From Actinomycetes bacterium (GTDB lineage Bacteria > Actinomycetota > Acidimicrobiia > Acidimicrobiales > Bog-793), in NCBI GenBank assembly GCA_021798985.1, contig JAJZBI010000035.1, positions 1-33,603 of the forward strand: 33,603 nucleotides of DNA, given 5' to 3'. Positions within the stretch are counted from its first letter, which is position 1. Every line of letters begins with the position of its first letter. The notes under the pieces were generated by a model. The model saw only the letters and a program-made list of their open reading frames with translations, was not told the origin of the DNA and did not search any database. Positions 22,553 through 30,474 of the stretch are shown piece after piece. The position numbers and the translations under genes are program-made.

Positions 22553-23767
22553 GTGCTGATCGAGCGCTACCTCATGTTGGGACTGGCCGTCGGACGTCAC
22601 ATCGACGGCTTCGTGGACGCCTACTACGGCCCCGCCGCCCTGGCCGCGGCGGCGGCCGAGGGCCCGCCCCTTCCGCCGGAGCACCTGGTCGCCGAGGCGC
22701 GCTCCCTGCTCGCCGCGATCGACGCCGGCGAGCCGCTCGGTGCCGTCGGGGCGGACATCGGCGCCCCGGAAGAGACCGGCTCGGACGCCGCGGCGCGCCG
22801 GCGCTGGCTGCGCGGCCAGGTGCGCGGGGTGCACACGACGGCGCGGCGGCTCGCTGGCGAGCCGATCGGCTACGCGGACGAGGTCGAGTCCTGCTACGGC
22901 GTCCGGCCGAGCCGGCTCCCCGAAGAGCGCTTTGTCGCCGCCCGCAAGGAGCTCGAGGCGGCCGTCCCGGGCACGGGCCCCATTGCCGAGCGATTGATCG
23001 CCTGGCGAGAGCGCCAGGCGATCCCACCCCACCGCCTGGAGGCGGCGATCGCCTCGCTCTGCGAGGACCTGCGCGCCCGCACCGCGGCGCGCTTCGGGCT
23101 GCCCGAGGGCGAGTCGGTCGAGTTCTCGCTCGTCACGAACAAGCCGTGGTCGGGCTTCAACCACTATCTGGGCGACCTTGCGTCGCGCGTCGAGATCAAC
23201 GTCGATCTGCCGGTGCTGTCGGTGAGCATCGCCCACCTCGTCGCACACGAGGCCTATCCCGGGCACCACACCGAGCACTCCCGCAAGGAGGTCGGCCTCG
23301 TCCGTTCCCGCCAGTACCTCGAGGAGTCGATCTTCCTCGTCGGCACGCCGCAGTGCCTGATCGCCGAGGGGCTCGCTGACCTCGGCCTCGAGATCGTGGT
23401 CGGCGCCCGGCCCGAGCGGGTGGTCGCCGAGCACCTGCGCCCGCTCGGCATCGACTACGACCCCGACACCGTCGCCGTCGTGGCGCAGGCGAGCGAGATC
23501 CTCGGGCGGGTGCGCGCGAACGCCGCGTTCCGCCTGCACGAGGACGGCGCCGACCCCGACACCGTCGCCGCCGAGGTGGCCGAGCTCGCGCTCTTGCCCG
23601 AGGCCCGGGCGAAAAAGCAGGTGGAGTTCTTGATGGACCCGACGTGGCACTCCTACATCAGCTGCTACACCGAGGGTCTGCCGCTTTGCCGCGCGTTCGT
23701 CGGTGGCGACCCGGCGCGCTTCTCCCGCCTGATCACCGAGCAACTCACTCCCGCCGAGCTGGCGTGA
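22553..23767 (+). CDS. DUF885-family putative zinc metallopeptidase
   Basis: 404 residues. The diagnostic motif HEAYPGHH lies at residues 232-239 and is the HExxPGHH zinc-binding pattern of DUF885 proteins, predicted metallopeptidases or carboxypeptidase-like enzymes. Further on, AEGLADLGLEI matches the helix that normally supplies a third ligand (compare EGWA.Y.E). There is no signal peptide, so it is probably cytoplasmic. Shorter than the ~550-600 residues of many secreted DUF885 members. It starts at GTG 22553 six bases after a TACCGT box. Its stop overlaps the start of the first glycosyltransferase (GTGA), so the peptidase and the glycan cluster are likely co-transcribed. Its substrate is unknown. 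Confidence 0.75.
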   Translation: MLIERYLMLGLAVGRHIDGFVDAYYGPAALAAAAAEGPPLPPEHLVAEARSLLAAIDAGEPLGAVGADIGAPEETGSDAAARRRWLRGQVRGVHTTARRLAGEPIGYADEVESCYGVRPSRLPEERFVAARKELEAAVPGTGPIAERLIAWRERQAIPPHRLEAAIASLCEDLRARTAARFGLPEGESVEFSLVTNKPWSGFNHYLGDLASRVEINVDLPVLSVSIAHLVAHEAYPGHHTEHSRKEVGLVRSRQYLEESIFLVGTPQCLIAEGLADLGLEIVVGARPERVVAEHLRPLGIDYDPDTVAVVAQASEILGRVRANAAFRLHEDGADPDTVAAEVAELALLPEARAKKQVEFLMDPTWHSYISCYTEGLPLCRAFVGGDPARFSRLITEQLTPAELA

Positions 23768-25755
23768 AGCAGCCCGACGCCGGGCCGGGCGCGTGCCAAG
23801 CGACGGTGATCATCGTCGGATGGCGCCGGGCGCGCCATCTGCGTGGCTGCCTCGCCGCGCTCGCCGCCCACCGCTGTGGCGTGCCCTTCGACGTGGTGGT
23901 GGCGCTGAACGAGCCCGCCGACGAGCTCGCCGACGAGCTCGACGCCGCGCCGGTGGCGGTGCGCGTCCTTGAGAGCGATGCGAACCTGGGCTTCGGCGCG
24001 GCGTGCAACCGCGCCGCCGCCGTGGCGAGCGCGCCGCTGCTGGTCTTTTTGAACGACGACGCCACGGTCGAAGACGGCTGGCTCGATGCGCTCGTCGACG
24101 CCGCGGCCCGACGCCCGGCCGCGGTCGCGATCGGCGGCGCGGTGCGCTTTTGCGACGGCCGCTGGCAAGAGGCGGGCTCGGTGATCTGGCGCGACGGCTG
24201 GACGAGCGGGGTCGGCCGCGGCCTGGTGCAGGGCGACGCCCGGTTCTTCTTCGAGCGCCGCGTCGAGTACTGCTCGGCGAGCTCGTTGCTCGTGCGCTCG
24301 GAGGACTTCGTTGCCGTCGGCGGGTTCGACGAGGAGTACTACCCGGCGTACTTCGAGGACTGCGACCTGTGCCTGCGCCTGGCGGCGCGCGGCGAGATCT
24401 GGTTCACCCCGCTGGCATCGGTTCGCCACCTCGAGTCCCAGAGCACCACTGGCACCTACCGCCAGTACCTGATGGAACGCAACCACGAGCTCTTTCTCCG
24501 TCGCTGGGGCACCGAGCTTGCGTCGCGCCCCGAGCGGCGCCAGGACGAGGTTGGCATCGACCAGGCGCTGCGGTCCGCGGCCGGGGCGCGCTGGCGGGTG
24601 CTCGTGATCGACGACCGGACACCGGACCCAAGCCTCGGCTCCGGCCTCGGCCGCATGGCCGACGTGCTCGAGGAGCTGACTGGCGACGGTGCCGCGCTCG
24701 TGACCTTCTTCGCCGGCTCGGAGGGCGGGGCCGTCGCGCCCGAGCGCCTAGCTCGGGCCGGCATCGAGCTCGTCCGCAACGACCTCGTCGAGTACCGGGG
24801 CCGCCTTGGGGAGGCGATCACCGACCATCTCGCCGAGCGGCCGTTCTGCTACGACGCCGTCATCGTGTCGCGGCCGCACAACTATGAGCGCTACGCCGAG
24901 GCGCTGCGTGCGGCGATGCCGGAGACGCCGATCATCTACGACGCCGAGGCCGTCTACTCCCGACGCATCGAGCGCCAGCTCGCCCTCGCCGTCGACCGCT
25001 TCGCGCGCGTCGCGCTCCAAGACGAACTTGCGGCGATGTCCCATCTCGAGGCGACGATCGCCGCCGACGCCGACGCGATCGTCTGCATCAGCGAGCAAGA
25101 AGCCGAATTCTTCCGCCGCCGCACGACCGCCCCGGTCGTCGTCAACCCGCCGCTGCTCTCGGCGAGCTCACCGAGCGGCGCCGGCTTTGACGAGCGCGAC
25201 GGGATGGTCTTTGTCGCCGGGTGGGGGGCGGGGGCCGACTCACCGAACGCGGACGGCCTCGTCTGGTTCGTGCGCGAGGTGCTCGGACGCGTCCTCGCCC
25301 GCCTTGGCTCCGCCACGCTCGTGGTCACCGGAGCGAACCCCCCGGCGAACGCGCGCCGCCTCGCCTCCGACGCGGTCCGTCTCGTCGGCGGCGTCGAGGA
25401 TCTCGCAGCGCTCTATCGCAGGGCGCGCCTCGTGGTGGTGCCCTTGCGCTACGGCGCCGGGGTCAAGTTGAAGACGGTCGAGGCGCTCCAGCACGGGGTG
25501 CCGGTCGTAGCGACGAGCGTCGGGGCGGAGGGGATCCCCTTTGCCCCGGGCGTGGTCGCGGTCCGCGACGACCCGGCGGGCTTTGCCGACGCGGTGGTCG
25601 AGGCGCTCGCTGACCGCGACGCCTGGCGGGCCCTCCACGCCAAGGTGCTCGCCCAGCTCGAGGCCTGGCAGCGCGAGCCGCCGCCCCGGATCTGGGCGCA
25701 GCTGGTGCGCGAGGTGATCGCGGCGCACCGGCGCACCGGCGCGAGCGCGCGATGA
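23764..25755 (+). CDS. Bifunctional glycosyltransferase, GT2 (GT-A) plus GT4-like (GT-B)
   Basis: 663 residues with two transferase modules. Residues ~12-250 are a GT2 domain: VIIVGWRRARHLRGCLAAL, the donor/metal motif FLNDDAT (NDD 97-99), then GGFDEEYYPAYFEDCDLCLR with the acidic catalytic-base region at ~198-201. Residues ~277-650 are a GT-B fold: Rossmann start RVLVIDDRTPDP, SRPHNYERY, IIYDAEAVYSRRIE, and the donor site YGAGVKLKTVEALQHG followed by VPVVATSVGAEG. No membrane helix, so it works on the cytoplasmic face. It probably adds two sugars in succession to a surface-glycan precursor. GTG 23764 overlaps the preceding stop. It is clearly paralogous to the gene at 26255. Confidence 0.88.
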   Translation: MKQPDAGPGACQATVIIVGWRRARHLRGCLAALAAHRCGVPFDVVVALNEPADELADELDAAPVAVRVLESDANLGFGAACNRAAAVASAPLLVFLNDDATVEDGWLDALVDAAARRPAAVAIGGAVRFCDGRWQEAGSVIWRDGWTSGVGRGLVQGDARFFFERRVEYCSASSLLVRSEDFVAVGGFDEEYYPAYFEDCDLCLRLAARGEIWFTPLASVRHLESQSTTGTYRQYLMERNHELFLRRWGTELASRPERRQDEVGIDQALRSAAGARWRVLVIDDRTPDPSLGSGLGRMADVLEELTGDGAALVTFFAGSEGGAVAPERLARAGIELVRNDLVEYRGRLGEAITDHLAERPFCYDAVIVSRPHNYERYAEALRAAMPETPIIYDAEAVYSRRIERQLALAVDRFARVALQDELAAMSHLEATIAADADAIVCISEQEAEFFRRRTTAPVVVNPPLLSASSPSGAGFDERDGMVFVAGWGAGADSPNADGLVWFVREVLGRVLARLGSATLVVTGANPPANARRLASDAVRLVGGVEDLAALYRRARLVVVPLRYGAGVKLKTVEALQHGVPVVATSVGAEGIPFAPGVVAVRDDPAGFADAVVEALADRDAWRALHAKVLAQLEAWQREPPPRIWAQLVREVIAAHRRTGASAR

Positions 25756-26258
25756 GCCTTCGGGCGCCCGCAGCGACGTCGGTACACTCGCGCGCCGTGC
25801 GGGGCGGCGAGCTGGGCGAAGCGGACCTGCGCGCCGTGCTCGAGCGGGCCGACACGGCGAGTCGCGAGCAGCTCGCCCACGCACTCGGGGCGGCCCTGCT
25901 CATGGCGCGCGAGCGCCAGTGCACCATCGAGCTGTTGCGCGGCGAGCTGGCGGCACTGGAGGCCGACCTGCGCGCGCTCGATCGCCACGTCGGCAGCCTC
26001 GAGCACGACCGCCTCGTGATGGAGATCGAGCGCGAACAACTGCGCGGGCGCGCCGCCGAGCTCTTCGTGGACCTCGAGCGCGACGAGCAGGCGATCGCGT
26101 CGCTGCGGGCCGAGCTCGCCCGCTCCGGGCGACCGGCCGGATCCGGTGCGCGAAGCGAGGGGGCGGCACCGCAGCGGCGGGACTTGTGGCGGGCGTTGCG
26201 CAGCCGCTTGACTTCGGGCCAAGGGACGCGTCCGCCCGGCGCGCGAGGGGAGCGATGA
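25752..26258 (+). CDS. Small coiled-coil protein between the two double glycosyltransferases
   Basis: 168 residues (153 if GTG 25797 is used). About residues 25-125 are predicted coiled coil, with Leu/Ala heptads and alternating Glu/Arg (for example AALEADLRALDRHVGSLEHD). The C-terminus is basic and Gly/Pro/Arg-rich. No catalytic motif, no signal peptide and no recognised family. ATG 25752 overlaps the upstream stop (ATGA), and its own stop overlaps the next glycosyltransferase start (ATGA), so translation is coupled on both sides. TACACT at 25783-25788 could give an internal leaderless start at GTG 25797. A scaffold or length-control role for the transferases is inference from position and shape. 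Confidence 0.65.
   Translation: MSLRAPAATSVHSRAVRGGELGEADLRAVLERADTASREQLAHALGAALLMARERQCTIELLRGELAALEADLRALDRHVGSLEHDRLVMEIEREQLRGRAAELFVDLERDEQAIASLRAELARSGRPAGSGARSEGAAPQRRDLWRALRSRLTSGQGTRPPGARGER
25783..25796 (+). promoter_or_regulatory. Possible internal promoter before the first coiled-coil gene
   Basis: TACACT (25783-25788) is a good TANNNT box eight bases before the in-frame GTG 25797. It lies inside the operon, so it would allow the coiled-coil protein and downstream genes to be expressed separately. Confidence 0.3.
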
Positions 26259-28237
26259 GCAACCACGTCGAATTCCAGCCCGAGCCGGCGCCGCTCGCGT
26301 CGGTGATCGTGGTCGCCTGGCGCCGCGCCCCCTACCTCCTCGCCTGCCTACGCGCGCTCGCCGCGAGCGTGCGCGACGCCGCCTATGAGGTGATCGTCGT
26401 CTTGAACGAGACCACGCCGGAGCTGCGCGCCGAGGTGCACGACAAGGTGCACGGCGCGACGCTGCTCACGAGCGCGGTGAACCTGGGCTTTGCCGGCGCC
26501 GTGAACCTCGCGGCGGAGCGGGCGCGCGGCGCCTACCTCGTGCTGTTGAACGACGACACCGAGGTCGAGCCGCTGTGGCTCGAGCACCTCATCGAGACCG
26601 CCGAGCGCCGGCCGCTGGCGGGCGCGGTCGGCAGCACGATGCTGTTCCCCGACGGCACGATCCAAGAGGCCGGCTCGATCCTGTGGCACGACGGCTCGAC
26701 GCTCACCGTCGGCCGGGGGCTGCCTGGCGACAGCCGGCGCTATGACTTCGAGCGGCAGGTGGACTTCGCCTCCGGCGGCTCGCTGCTCGTGCGGCGGGCG
26801 ACCTGGGAGGCGCTTGGGGGCTTCTCGTCGGACTACTTCCCGGCTTACTACGAGGACACCGATCTGTGCCTGCGCATCCGCCAGCTCGGCCAGCAGGTCT
26901 GGTTCCAGCCGCGCTCGCGCGTCATGCACCACGAGTCGACGAGCACCAACTCGACGTATCGGAACTTTCTCTTTGAGCGCAATAAGGTCGTGCTGCAGGA
27001 GCGCTTTGCCGACCTGCTCGCCGAGCGCGTGACCGCTGCGCCGTGGGACCCCGCCGCCATCGAGGAGGCCGTGTGGCGGGCGATGGGCGCGCCGGCGCGC
27101 GTGCTGCTCGTCGACGACCAGCTGCCGATGCCGGCCAAGGGATCGGGGATGCCGCGCATGGCCGAGGTGGTCGCCTCGTTGCAGCAGACCGGTCGCTACC
27201 AGGTCTCGGTCTGGACCTCGCTGTATGGGGGGAGCAACGACAACGACCTGATGGCACGGCTCGGCATCGAGGTGATCGACGGCCCGCTCGAAGAGCACCT
27301 CGCCACCGCCGGGCGTCGCTACGCCGCGGCCATCTTCTCGCGCCCGCACAACTTCGAGATCCGCGCCCCGCTCGTGCGCGCCGCGACGCCCGAGACCAAG
27401 CTCATCTACGACGCCGAAGCGCTATTCTTCCGCCGCATCGAACGCGAGGCCGACCTTGCCGCGGGCACCCCCCGGGAGGAAGACCTGCGCGCCGCGGCGG
27501 CGGACATGAAGCGGACCGAGGAGCAGATCGCCGCCGAGGCGGACTATGTCGTCACGATCTCCGAGGAGGAGGCCGCGGCGCTCGTTCCCTCGGCCAAGGG
27601 GCCGGTCGTCGTGCACGGCCCGCTGCTCGCCGGCATCCAGCCGACGACGACGCCCTACCTCGAGCGGCGCGACCTCGCGTTCGTCGCCGGCTGGGCGGCC
27701 GGTCCCTCCTCGCCCAACTTCGACGCCATGTTCTGGTTCGTGCGCGACGTCTTGCCCAAGCTGCGGGCCCGCGTCGCCGGGGCCCGCCTACTCGTCACCG
27801 GCATCGGCCCGCCCGAGCAGCTCGAGCGCCTCGCCAGCCCGTCGGTGGTCTTCGTCGGATCGGTCGACCTCGCCGAGTTCTACGGCCAGATCCGCGCCGC
27901 GGTGGTCCCGATGCGCTTCGGGGCGGGCGTGAAGAACAAGACGATCGAGGCCCTCCAGTTCGGTGTGCCGACGGTCGCGACCTCCGTGGGGGCAGAAGGC
28001 GTCCCCCTCGAGGACCCCGACGCTTTGATCGTCGCCGACGACTCGTGGGGCTTCGCGGACGCGCTCGAGGCCTTGCTCACCGACCAGGCCGCCTGGCAGC
28101 TGCAGCGGCGGCGCATCCTCGCCCAGATCGCCCGCTGGGGGGAGGCGCGGCCGCCGTCGGTCTGGCTGGCGGCCCTCGACGCCCTGACGGGCGCCCGGAG
28201 CGAGCCCCACCTGCTCGAGGGCGCCACCGCCGAATGA
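26255..28237 (+). CDS. Bifunctional glycosyltransferase, GT2 plus GT4-like, paralogue of the gene at 23764
   Basis: 660 residues with the same order of domains as its neighbour. The GT2 part runs ~13-270: SVIVVAWRRAPYLLACLRAL, the metal motif LLNDDTEVE (NDD 99-101) and GGFSSDYFPAYYEDTDLCLR. The GT-B part runs ~290-650: RVLLVDDQLPMPAKGSGMPR, FSRPHNFEIR, LIYDAEALFFRRIERE, FVAGWAAGPSSPNFDAM and FGAGVKNKTIEALQFGVPTV. ATG 26255 has GAGGGGAG immediately upstream and overlaps the preceding stop. The two paralogues must stem from a duplication, perhaps together with the adjacent coiled-coil genes, and have diverged enough to use different donors or acceptors. Cytoplasmic; the sugars cannot be predicted. 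Confidence 0.88.
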   Translation: MSNHVEFQPEPAPLASVIVVAWRRAPYLLACLRALAASVRDAAYEVIVVLNETTPELRAEVHDKVHGATLLTSAVNLGFAGAVNLAAERARGAYLVLLNDDTEVEPLWLEHLIETAERRPLAGAVGSTMLFPDGTIQEAGSILWHDGSTLTVGRGLPGDSRRYDFERQVDFASGGSLLVRRATWEALGGFSSDYFPAYYEDTDLCLRIRQLGQQVWFQPRSRVMHHESTSTNSTYRNFLFERNKVVLQERFADLLAERVTAAPWDPAAIEEAVWRAMGAPARVLLVDDQLPMPAKGSGMPRMAEVVASLQQTGRYQVSVWTSLYGGSNDNDLMARLGIEVIDGPLEEHLATAGRRYAAAIFSRPHNFEIRAPLVRAATPETKLIYDAEALFFRRIEREADLAAGTPREEDLRAAAADMKRTEEQIAAEADYVVTISEEEAAALVPSAKGPVVVHGPLLAGIQPTTTPYLERRDLAFVAGWAAGPSSPNFDAMFWFVRDVLPKLRARVAGARLLVTGIGPPEQLERLASPSVVFVGSVDLAEFYGQIRAAVVPMRFGAGVKNKTIEALQFGVPTVATSVGAEGVPLEDPDALIVADDSWGFADALEALLTDQAAWQLQRRRILAQIARWGEARPPSVWLAALDALTGARSEPHLLEGATAE

Positions 28238-28257
28238 GCGATCCGAGCCGGTGTGGC

Positions 28258-28270
28258 TACCATGGCCGGC
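28258..28270 (+). promoter_or_regulatory. Possible internal promoter before the second coiled-coil gene
   Basis: TACCAT (28258-28263) lies seven bases before an in-frame GTG at 28271. It mirrors the internal box before the first coiled-coil gene. The -10 would overlap ATG 28262. Confidence 0.28.
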
Positions 28271-28867
28271 GTGTCCGAAGCGGAGCGAGCGACTGAGGAG
28301 CAACGCGCCCAGGAGTCGGGGCTCAGCGCGCTCGTGGTGAACGACCAGAGATCGCCCAGCCTTCCGAGCGAGCGCGAGGTGCCGGGCGAGCTCCGCCGCG
28401 AGGCGCGGCCCTCGGAGATCGTCGAGCGGGCGAGCGTCGCCGAGCGCCGGATCTTCGCGCTCGAGGAGCGGCTCCACGACGTCGAGCTGCGCCTGCGCGA
28501 GCAGGTGGAGTCCGAGCGGCAGCGGGCGCTCGAGATGCGGGCGGTCGAGCGCGACGTCGCCGTCAAGGAGGCCTACGCCCAGCGGCTCGAGGTCGAGCTG
28601 GCGTCGGTGAAAGAGCAGCTGCACGCGCACGTCCTCGAGGTGCAGCGCCTCGACACCCACATCCGGGCCCAGAACGACGTGATCGCGCAGCACACCGCCG
28701 CCCGCGAGGCCGCCGAACAGCGCGCCGCCGAGCTCGGGGCGCTCGTCGGGACGATCCAGCAGCAGGCGAGCTACCGCGCCGCGGTGGCGCTCAACAACCG
28801 GCTGCGCCGGGCCGGCCCGCTCTATGGCGTGGCCCGCCGCGTGGCCCGCAGCGCGCTCGGGCGCTAG
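28262..28867 (+). CDS. Second coiled-coil protein of the glycan cluster
   Basis: 201 residues from ATG 28262 (GTG 28253 and GTG 28271 are alternatives; none has a ribosome-binding site). The centre (about 55-175) is an uninterrupted charged coiled coil, for example RIFALEERLHDVELRLREQV and further ELASVKEQL heptads. The C-terminus, NNRLRRAGPLYGVARRVARS, is an amphipathic basic tail of the kind found at the ends of glycan-cluster transferases and could contact the membrane. No catalytic motif is seen. It follows the second double glycosyltransferase by 24 bp and precedes the FkbM-fusion gene by 20 bp. A structural or scaffolding role is inferred. Confidence 0.65.
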   Translation: MAGVSEAERATEEQRAQESGLSALVVNDQRSPSLPSEREVPGELRREARPSEIVERASVAERRIFALEERLHDVELRLREQVESERQRALEMRAVERDVAVKEAYAQRLEVELASVKEQLHAHVLEVQRLDTHIRAQNDVIAQHTAAREAAEQRAAELGALVGTIQQQASYRAAVALNNRLRRAGPLYGVARRVARSALGR

Positions 28868-28887
28868 CGCGACCGCCGGCACCGGCC

Positions 28888-30474
28888 GTGATCTCCTACG
28901 CCCAGAACGCCGAGGACGTCATCCTCGCCCGTGCCCTCGAGCGGGACCGTCCCGGCTTTTACGTCGACGTCGGCGCGGCCTCGCCGACCGAGGCGACGGT
29001 CACCCGCCACTTCTACGAGACGGGCTGGAGCGGAATCAACCTCGAGCCGGTGCCCAAGTGGGCGGCGGCGCTGCGGGCGCTTCGTCCCCGGGACCTCACG
29101 ATCGAGGCGGCCGCCGGGGCGAGCCCGGGCGAGCTCGTCTTCTACGAGGTGCTCGACGACCCGGCGTTGTCGACCAGCGACGCGTCGGCCGCCTCCCGCC
29201 TCGTGCGGGAGGGTCACGAGCTGCGAGAGCTCTCCATGCGCGTCGTCACCTTGGACGCCGTGCTCGCCGAGGCGGCGCCGGAGACGATCGACTTCTTGAA
29301 GATCGACGTCGAGGGCGCCGAGCGTGAGGTGCTCGAGGGCATCGATCTCGCGCGCTGGCGACCCCGCGTGATCACCGTGGAGGCGACCGAGCCGAACTCG
29401 CTGCGCCCGGCGTATCGGACCTGGGAGCACCTCGTCACCGGTCGCGGCTATGCCTACGCCGCGACCGACGGCATCAACCGCTACTACGTGCGCGAGGAGG
29501 AGGCGGCCCTCGGCGAGCTCCTCGTCCCGGCGAACTCCCTCGACGAGTACGTACCGATGCGCGAGCAGCTGCTGTTGGACGAGATCGAGCGGCTGCGGAC
29601 CTACGCGCACTCGCTCGAGCTCGGCCGCGCCGAGCTGGCGGACGACCTCGCGCAGGCCAAGGGCGAGATCGACGCGCTCGAGCGCCGTGCCCGGCTGGGG
29701 CGCCGCCACGGCGCGGCCGGGGGGCGGCCGGATCGCCCGGCGCTGCCCACGAGCCCTCCCATCGAGCGCATCGCCGTGCTCAGCACGCCTGGGACCGGCG
29801 CGCCGGCCTTTGCGGCCGCCTTGGCGCGCGAGCTCGGCTGCGGCGAGGCTGCAGCAGAACACCCTGCCGACCTGCGCTTTTCTGAGCTGCCCGAGCGTCT
29901 CGTCGTGCAACTCGCCTGGCCGCGCAGCTCGCTGTGGCGCAGCCAGCTCGTCGCGCACGGCTTCCAGGTCGTGACGATCGGCCGCCACCCCTTCGACGCG
30001 CTCTTGGCGATGCTGCGCCTGGTCCAGGTCGAGCCGGCGGCGAGCCAGTGGCTCGAGGCGAGCGACGCCGAAGCGCTCGAGGGGCTCCGCCCGACGAGCG
30101 AGGCCTTCGTGGCCTGGGCCACGAGCGAGCGTGCCGGGCTGCTGGTCTCGATCAGCGCCGGGTGGTGGCTCGACCCGGGCTGCTGGAACGTCCGCTTCGA
30201 CGAGCTCGCCCGCGACCTCGACGCGGTCGTCGGGCGCGCCGCGAGCCTCTTCCGCCCCGGCCGGCCGGCGACCGCCCGCAGCCGTGGCGCCGAGCTCGGC
30301 CTCGAGTCGGTCCCGGGCGGGTGGCGCCGCTACCTCACGGCCGAGGTCGCGGCCGCGCTCGGATCGGCCCATGCCGGCGCGCTCGCGACCTTCGGCTTCG
30401 GCGAGGAGGCGACCGCCGACCTGCCGAGCGCCGCGGCCGCCGATGCGGCCTGGCGCGAGCTCGCCGACGCCTAA
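28888..30474 (+). CDS. FkbM methyltransferase / coiled-coil / sulfotransferase-like fusion protein
   Basis: 528 residues in three parts. Residues 1-~205 are an FkbM-family SAM methyltransferase: the typical start ISYAQNAEDVIL, the SAM loop FYVDVGAASP (24-33), and FLKIDVEGAEREVL (136-149). Residues ~224-272 are a short charged coiled coil. Residues ~293-490 resemble a sulfotransferase P-loop fold: a 5'-phosphosulfate-like loop LSTPGTGAPAFAAAL (298-312) after a beta strand, and a 3'-phosphate-binding-like VTIGRHPFDALLAML (362-376). The Lys/Arg normally present in the first loop is missing, so activity is doubtful. FkbM enzymes O-methylate sugars, so this protein probably modifies or caps the glycan made by the upstream genes. 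An IS5-family element begins 3 bp after its stop. Confidence 0.75.
   Translation: MISYAQNAEDVILARALERDRPGFYVDVGAASPTEATVTRHFYETGWSGINLEPVPKWAAALRALRPRDLTIEAAAGASPGELVFYEVLDDPALSTSDASAASRLVREGHELRELSMRVVTLDAVLAEAAPETIDFLKIDVEGAEREVLEGIDLARWRPRVITVEATEPNSLRPAYRTWEHLVTGRGYAYAATDGINRYYVREEEAALGELLVPANSLDEYVPMREQLLLDEIERLRTYAHSLELGRAELADDLAQAKGEIDALERRARLGRRHGAAGGRPDRPALPTSPPIERIAVLSTPGTGAPAFAAALARELGCGEAAAEHPADLRFSELPERLVVQLAWPRSSLWRSQLVAHGFQVVTIGRHPFDALLAMLRLVQVEPAASQWLEASDAEALEGLRPTSEAFVAWATSERAGLLVSISAGWWLDPGCWNVRFDELARDLDAVVGRAASLFRPGRPATARSRGAELGLESVPGGWRRYLTAEVAAALGSAHAGALATFGFGEEATADLPSAAAADAAWRELADA

Follow-up and report, generated by a model that had tools for sequence, protein, structure and literature searches.

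A repeated glycosyltransferase and coiled-coil gene pair with an FkbM fusion gene in an acidimicrobial genome, a putative glycan-assembly module

The window analysed here comprises 33,603 nucleotides (positions 1 to 33,603 of contig JAJZBI010000035.1, our contig C68) from an Acidimicrobiales genome of 3.76 Mb that is 97% complete. Five genes on its forward strand follow the order GT2-GT4 glycosyltransferase, coiled coil (CC), GT2-GT4 glycosyltransferase, CC, and an FkbM methyltransferase joined in one protein to a short helix and a sulfotransferase-like domain. Their products probably cooperate as a single machinery for assembling surface sugars, and we see about an even chance of a cytoplasmic, membrane-facing and membrane-tethered enzyme complex. 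The strongest new evidence for an assembled complex, which it supports well at the level of sequence, comes from relatives in which a methyltransferase, a coiled coil and a tail share one chain; the layout resembles that of WbdD, here apparently split into separate genes. Established directly are the gene content and its conservation, the helix prediction, the tail homology with the gene fusions and a degenerate loop in the last gene.

The five genes and their recurrence in relatives

The module comprises the following features; related genomes (G) and loci (L) carry our own numbers.

23764 to 25755, forward strand: GT-A, double glycosyltransferase, with GT2 at about 23803-24171 (PF00535, 2.7e-15) and GT4 at about 25240-25614 (PF13692, 7.3e-23)
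25797 to 26258, forward strand: CC-A, coiled-coil protein of 153 residues, heptad core at about 25896-26132 (heptad score); place conserved in L003, L004 and L041, tail diverged
26255 to 28237, forward strand: GT-B, double glycosyltransferase, with GT2 at about 26300-26686 (PF00535, 4.2e-21) and GT4 at about 27710-28084 (PF13692, 2.6e-22)
28271 to 28867, forward strand: CC-B, coiled-coil protein, single helix predicted at about 28409-28810, then a short basic C-terminal helix
28730 to 28864, forward strand: conserved 45-residue basic tail of CC-B (Q-SYR...P-LYR..RR.AR), whose profile matches CC proteins of three genera and the C-ends of the G056 and G264 fusions
28888 to 30474, forward strand: last gene, with FkbM methyltransferase (28966-29451), short helix (29557-29703) and sulfotransferase-like domain (29767-30471)
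29782 to 29799, forward strand: degenerate 3'-phosphoadenosine 5'-phosphosulfate (PAPS) loop, STPGTG; an intact relative in G051 has STPRSG

This order, proposed in a first-pass annotation, was borne out, with Pfam placing GT2 and GT4 in both transferases and FkbM in the last gene. The transferase domains score well above the Pfam cut-off and all four look intact, LNDD and ED.DLC motifs being present in GT-A; no Pfam family matched CC-A or CC-B. The proposed duplication also holds. GT-A and GT-B are 45-47% identical, and the kinship of CC-A with CC-B, which share only about 23% identity in the window (a soft figure, as explained below), is visible because CC-A of L041 retains the tail of CC-B. 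In a tree the A copies and the B copies form separate groups, with support of 84/89 and 86/96 and with the respective L041 protein inside each, which suggests that the doubling probably predates the split of the window's genus from that of L041.

Using tblastn and profiles of our own, we found the same five-gene order in L003 (77-90% identity) and L004 (48-68%), both of the same genus, and in L041 of genome G007, which belongs to another genus and has only the GT4 half of GT-A. At that locus (L041:6764-8856) the GT-A gene without its GT2 half is preceded, with a 4-bp overlap, by an HpcH/HpaI aldolase gene. A third genus, g7 (G008-G010), has a single unit with one gene each for GT2-GT4, CC and FkbM, and its FkbM protein carries its own coil and lacks the sulfotransferase-like half. 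The first-pass annotation had named a lack of conservation of the CC genes next to the transferases as a result that would refute it, and this did not occur: three genera of the family keep CC genes next to the transferases, and in a further family the CC is fused to a methyltransferase. Since most of the order-level GT2-GT4 relatives (L075-L085) have no adjoining CC gene, the pairing is restricted to certain lineages.

Coiled coils, basic tails and methyltransferase fusions

Heptad scoring finds, in most CC proteins, stretches of about 78-96 residues, whereas the glycosyltransferases have short ones or none. For each copy, the length of the CC core changes rather little among most members even as its sequence drifts. 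The first-pass annotation had named predicted disorder as a result that would speak against its reading; instead, AlphaFold2 modelled CC-B, as a single chain that says nothing of oligomers, as one continuous helix of about 134 residues (residues 50-183), with a predicted local distance difference test (pLDDT) score mostly of 94-98, followed by a short helix. The mean pLDDT is 81, and block means are 94-98 over residues 61-170 (chain counted from 28262). The last 45 or so residues of CC-B-type proteins share the motif SYR...P.LYR..R..AR and are strongly basic, with a net charge of +8 in the final 35 residues of CC-B. Searches of solved structures with the CC profiles and a profile of the FkbM-sulfotransferase-like protein gave no useful relative and only generic coiled coils.

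In G056, of another family of the order, a class-I methyltransferase (Methyltransf_23), a coiled coil and a tail form one protein; its gene comes immediately behind a homologous GT2-GT4 gene and overlaps that gene's end. A CC-B tail profile built without the G056 sequence matches the C-end of this protein at E = 6e-8 among 4881 open reading frames, the next one outside the family standing at 0.011. With the G056 sequence included in the profile, a search of 298 genomes found an FkbM-CC-tail protein in G264, likewise outside the family, with no GT2-GT4 gene close by. That two neighbours of the window's module share one polypeptide in relatives supports a joint action of the coiled coil and the methyltransferase.

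The same evidence bears on whether the CC genes might lie here by chance and serve the cytoskeleton or cell division, independently of the module. They do have start boxes of their own (see below), but the pairing is retained across genera and the tail is fused to methyltransferases elsewhere, once beside a GT2-GT4 gene. We consider this explanation extremely improbable and rejected it on the strength of the conservation and the fusions.

Another methyltransferase-coiled-coil protein, which ends in a different tail motif, SSRLWRVATPYR, adjoins double GT2 genes (L076:1856-3562), and a GT2-GT2-GT4 protein of 1461 residues stands beside a protein that resembles, by eye, a flagellar rod protein (L084:2912-8325).

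The last gene, start signals and flanks

The FkbM half of the last gene matches PF05050 at E = 1e-24 (88 bits against a cut-off of 22.7) and also TIGR01444, aligns with structure 2py6 over 154 residues (Z 13.1, root-mean-square deviation 2.4), and keeps the S-adenosylmethionine (SAM)-binding motifs YVDVGA and DVEGAE invariant. A VIA-align structural comparison listed the methyltransferase half only and is not informative on the other half. For the C-terminal half, an AlphaFold2 model of moderate confidence has a sulfotransferase-like fold, and the best Foldseek matches are sulfotransferases (E = 1.6e-4, modest TM-score). Pfam has no family for this domain alone, even at E = 10; it is homologous (E = 8e-12) to a G051 protein with the loop STPRSGNTF and also RHPIDVLCS, itself a weak match, below cut-off, to Sulfotransfer_3. 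Judged by fold and homology, the domain is a true relative of sulfotransferases.

Active PAPS sulfotransferases have a basic residue in the 5'-phosphosulfate loop. The four fused copies read STPGTGAPA, STPGSGAPA, SAPGTGGLA and ATPQSGGER, with G or Q in place of the basic residue, and because it is gone in all four, sulfation is unlikely. The C-terminal domain is probably inactive as a sulfotransferase, and probably a degenerate, non-sulfating appendage with a binding or structural role. The earlier designation of the protein as a modifying fusion enzyme is therefore doubtful for the sulfotransferase-like part. A literature search for FkbM, coiled coil and sulfotransferase together found nothing relevant.

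Start signals and flanking genes are as follows.

22553 to 23767, forward strand: upstream gene with an HEAYPGHH motif, first in the overlapping gene run; TACCGT box before GTG 22553
25783 to 25788, forward strand: TANNNT box TACACT, 8 nt before the in-frame GTG 25797 of CC-A; kept in L003 and L004
28258 to 28263, forward strand: TANNNT box TACCAT, 7 nt before the in-frame GTG 28271 of CC-B; kept in L003 and L004, with 6-nt spacing in L041
30721 to 32181, reverse strand: IS605-type TnpB gene (Pfam), flanking and not in the module; a GT2 and a multi-transmembrane gene occupy this place in L003 and L004

The 4-bp overlaps GTGA 23764-23767, ATGA 25752-25755 and ATGA 26255-26258, previously assigned to the first three genes of the module, are real, but the run begins earlier, the GTGA overlap being with the upstream gene. 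Both boxes with their GTG codons (TACACT-N8-GTG and TACCAT-N7-GTG) are retained in L003 and L004 despite changes in neighbouring bases. CC-A has an alternative start at ATG 25752; because L004 has lost this ATG while keeping box and GTG, and has ATT for the ATG that overlaps the box of CC-B, GTG is the likely start of both CC-A (25797) and CC-B (28271), and the overlap at 25752, although present, is thus probably not the translation start of CC-A.

Of the 11 matches to the box-and-start pattern in the window, nine fall where a gene could plausibly begin; TANNNT-N5-9-RTG stands at the starts 2379, 16646, 17230, 22553, 25797 and 28271 on the forward strand and 22529, 18776 and 13908 on the reverse strand, in line with the leaderless genes of Actinobacteria (PMC3160421). 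Each CC gene indeed has its own conserved box and in-frame GTG, as first noticed, but since so many matches lie at gene starts the boxes are the usual leaderless signal of this organism, and we rejected a regulatory feature special to the CC genes. With start signals of their own, CC-A/GT-B and CC-B/FkbM could be transcribed as separate pairs.

The upstream gene (22553-23767), which we take by eye from its HEAYPGHH motif to be DUF885-like, has no Pfam or NCBIfam match and is syntenic in L003, L004 and L041. The window and L003 cease to be collinear at position 30472, where the last gene has its stop codon, and TnpB lies just after the module, indicating that an insertion or rearrangement abuts it; tblastx of the window end against L003 and L004 returned only high-GC noise.

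Proposed assembly mechanism and known systems

In the mechanism we favour, GT-A and GT-B would build a surface glycan, while CC-A and CC-B would serve as rod-shaped adaptors holding the transferases and the FkbM methyltransferase together, with the basic tail, where retained, lying at the membrane or on a partner. FkbM would O-methylate the sugar chain, probably late or at the chain end. This would amount to a WbdD-like layout (methyltransferase, coil and membrane- or partner-binding tail beside a multi-glycosyltransferase polymerase) split into genes, with its glycosyltransferase-CC half doubled. The physical complex, its membrane tethering, the O-methylation of the glycan and the order of steps are what we infer. 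Several observations weigh against this mechanism. Neither sugar-nucleotide nor export genes are linked to the module in the window, the recognisable tail is lost in the window's CC-A, the amphipathicity of CC-B-type tails taken singly is mostly not beyond that of shuffles (p 0.01-0.26), and the CC identity values are soft because coiled coils match one another by composition.

The module might instead be a true polymerase-terminator system, in which the CC proteins set chain length as rulers, FkbM methylation is the cap and the capped glycan is exported through a Wzm/Wzt transporter encoded elsewhere. In the relative G121, a single gene run encodes Wzm, a Wzt with Wzt_C, and GT2-GT4; the only Wzt_C of the present genome lies on contig C35, next to a Wzm-like protein and to a GT4, and is unlinked to the module. 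The FkbM-CC-tail and methyltransferase-CC-tail fusions, and core lengths that stay steady as sequence drifts, as for spacers (PMC5082667), also fit. In the window, however, the coil bears no terminating domain at its far end, CC-A and CC-B are separate proteins, and no Wzm/Wzt exporter is linked to the module. We regard such a system as unlikely. The first-pass proposal of a complex with WbdD-like logic is partly supported: the relatives' fusions favour complex and layout, whereas its ruler and cap are no more than an analogy; the CC proteins lack a terminating domain, and the exporter is unlinked. A variant in which the duplicated free CC proteins act in trans as rulers or adaptors, CC-A coupling GT-A with GT-B and CC-B coupling GT-B with the FkbM cap in a two-stage control of glycan length or sequence, is more doubtful still.

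Another alternative is a short, non-repeating glycan on lipid or protein, for which the transferases would make a lipid-linked oligosaccharide used by GT-C membrane enzymes and the coiled coils would only keep enzymes together. Module neighbours in g7, L041 and L003/L004 include multi-transmembrane proteins, some weakly GT-C-like; those of g7 include PMT_2 upstream (E = 4e-4) and YfhO downstream (8e-7). These neighbours vary among genera, their Pfam matches are weak and below cut-off, and in the window a transposon gene stands in their place, which makes this alternative improbable too. Highly unlikely, finally, is a flagellin glycosylation and methylation island. Flagellin is present in the genome, and enterobacterial islands for flagellin glycosylation include FkbM methyltransferases (PMC4875605), but the flagellin gene lies on another contig beside a large glycosyltransferase gene of its own (C38:41-42 kb), and G056 has GT2-GT4 and a methyltransferase-CC protein without a flagellin match. 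A separate glycan locus at G000:C47:44055-47315 (L050) holds a second FkbM gene with an ABC2-type membrane protein and a GT2.

Returning to the split, tethered complex that we favour, its parts can be set beside known systems. The N-terminal domain of the last gene belongs to the FkbM family (PF05050, TIGR01444; 2py6), from which it is set apart by the short helix and the degenerate sulfotransferase-like domain fused to it. The latter domain is like PAPS sulfotransferases (PF13469/PF00685) in fold and in homology to the intact-looking G051 relative, and differs in the loop, where all fused copies have G or Q instead of R/K.

Among Gram-negative bacteria, coiled-coil terminators have been characterised in O-antigen systems with ATP-binding cassette (ABC) export. 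Klebsiella O4/O7 assembly (PMC11231755) similarly spreads polymerase and terminator modules over one or several proteins, with a coiled coil as marker; the coil there lies inside the terminator protein, and free-standing coil proteins are not described in the accessible parts of that paper. In WbdD, according to the same paper, N-terminal catalytic sites are followed by the coil and then by a C-terminal region that has a membrane helix and a polymerase recruitment site. In the WbdD-WbdA pair of E. coli O9a and Klebsiella O3, the coil separates the terminator from the membrane tail that recruits the polymerase (PMC11231755, PMC3482155), and it is the fused form in relatives of our module that resembles this arrangement. 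A WbdD-type system has one protein with a terminating catalytic domain at the distal end of a coil, whereas CC-A and CC-B have no catalytic domain, coil and tail forming a separate small protein present twice. The FkbM protein of the window has just a helix of about 49 residues before its sulfotransferase-like domain, the fused layout being found in G056 and G264; its methyltransferase is of FkbM type, without a kinase. The glycosyltransferases are GT2-GT4 proteins, two of which, with a putative polymerising role, would correspond to the multi-domain polymerase alongside WbdD, and the linked Wzm/Wzt exporter with a glycan-binding Wzt_C has no counterpart beside the module. "Ruler and cap", as first suggested, is nevertheless a reasonable analogy, and with coil and tail in separate proteins here and fused in sister lineages, the ruler idea could be tested piecewise, coil length being changeable without touching the enzymes.
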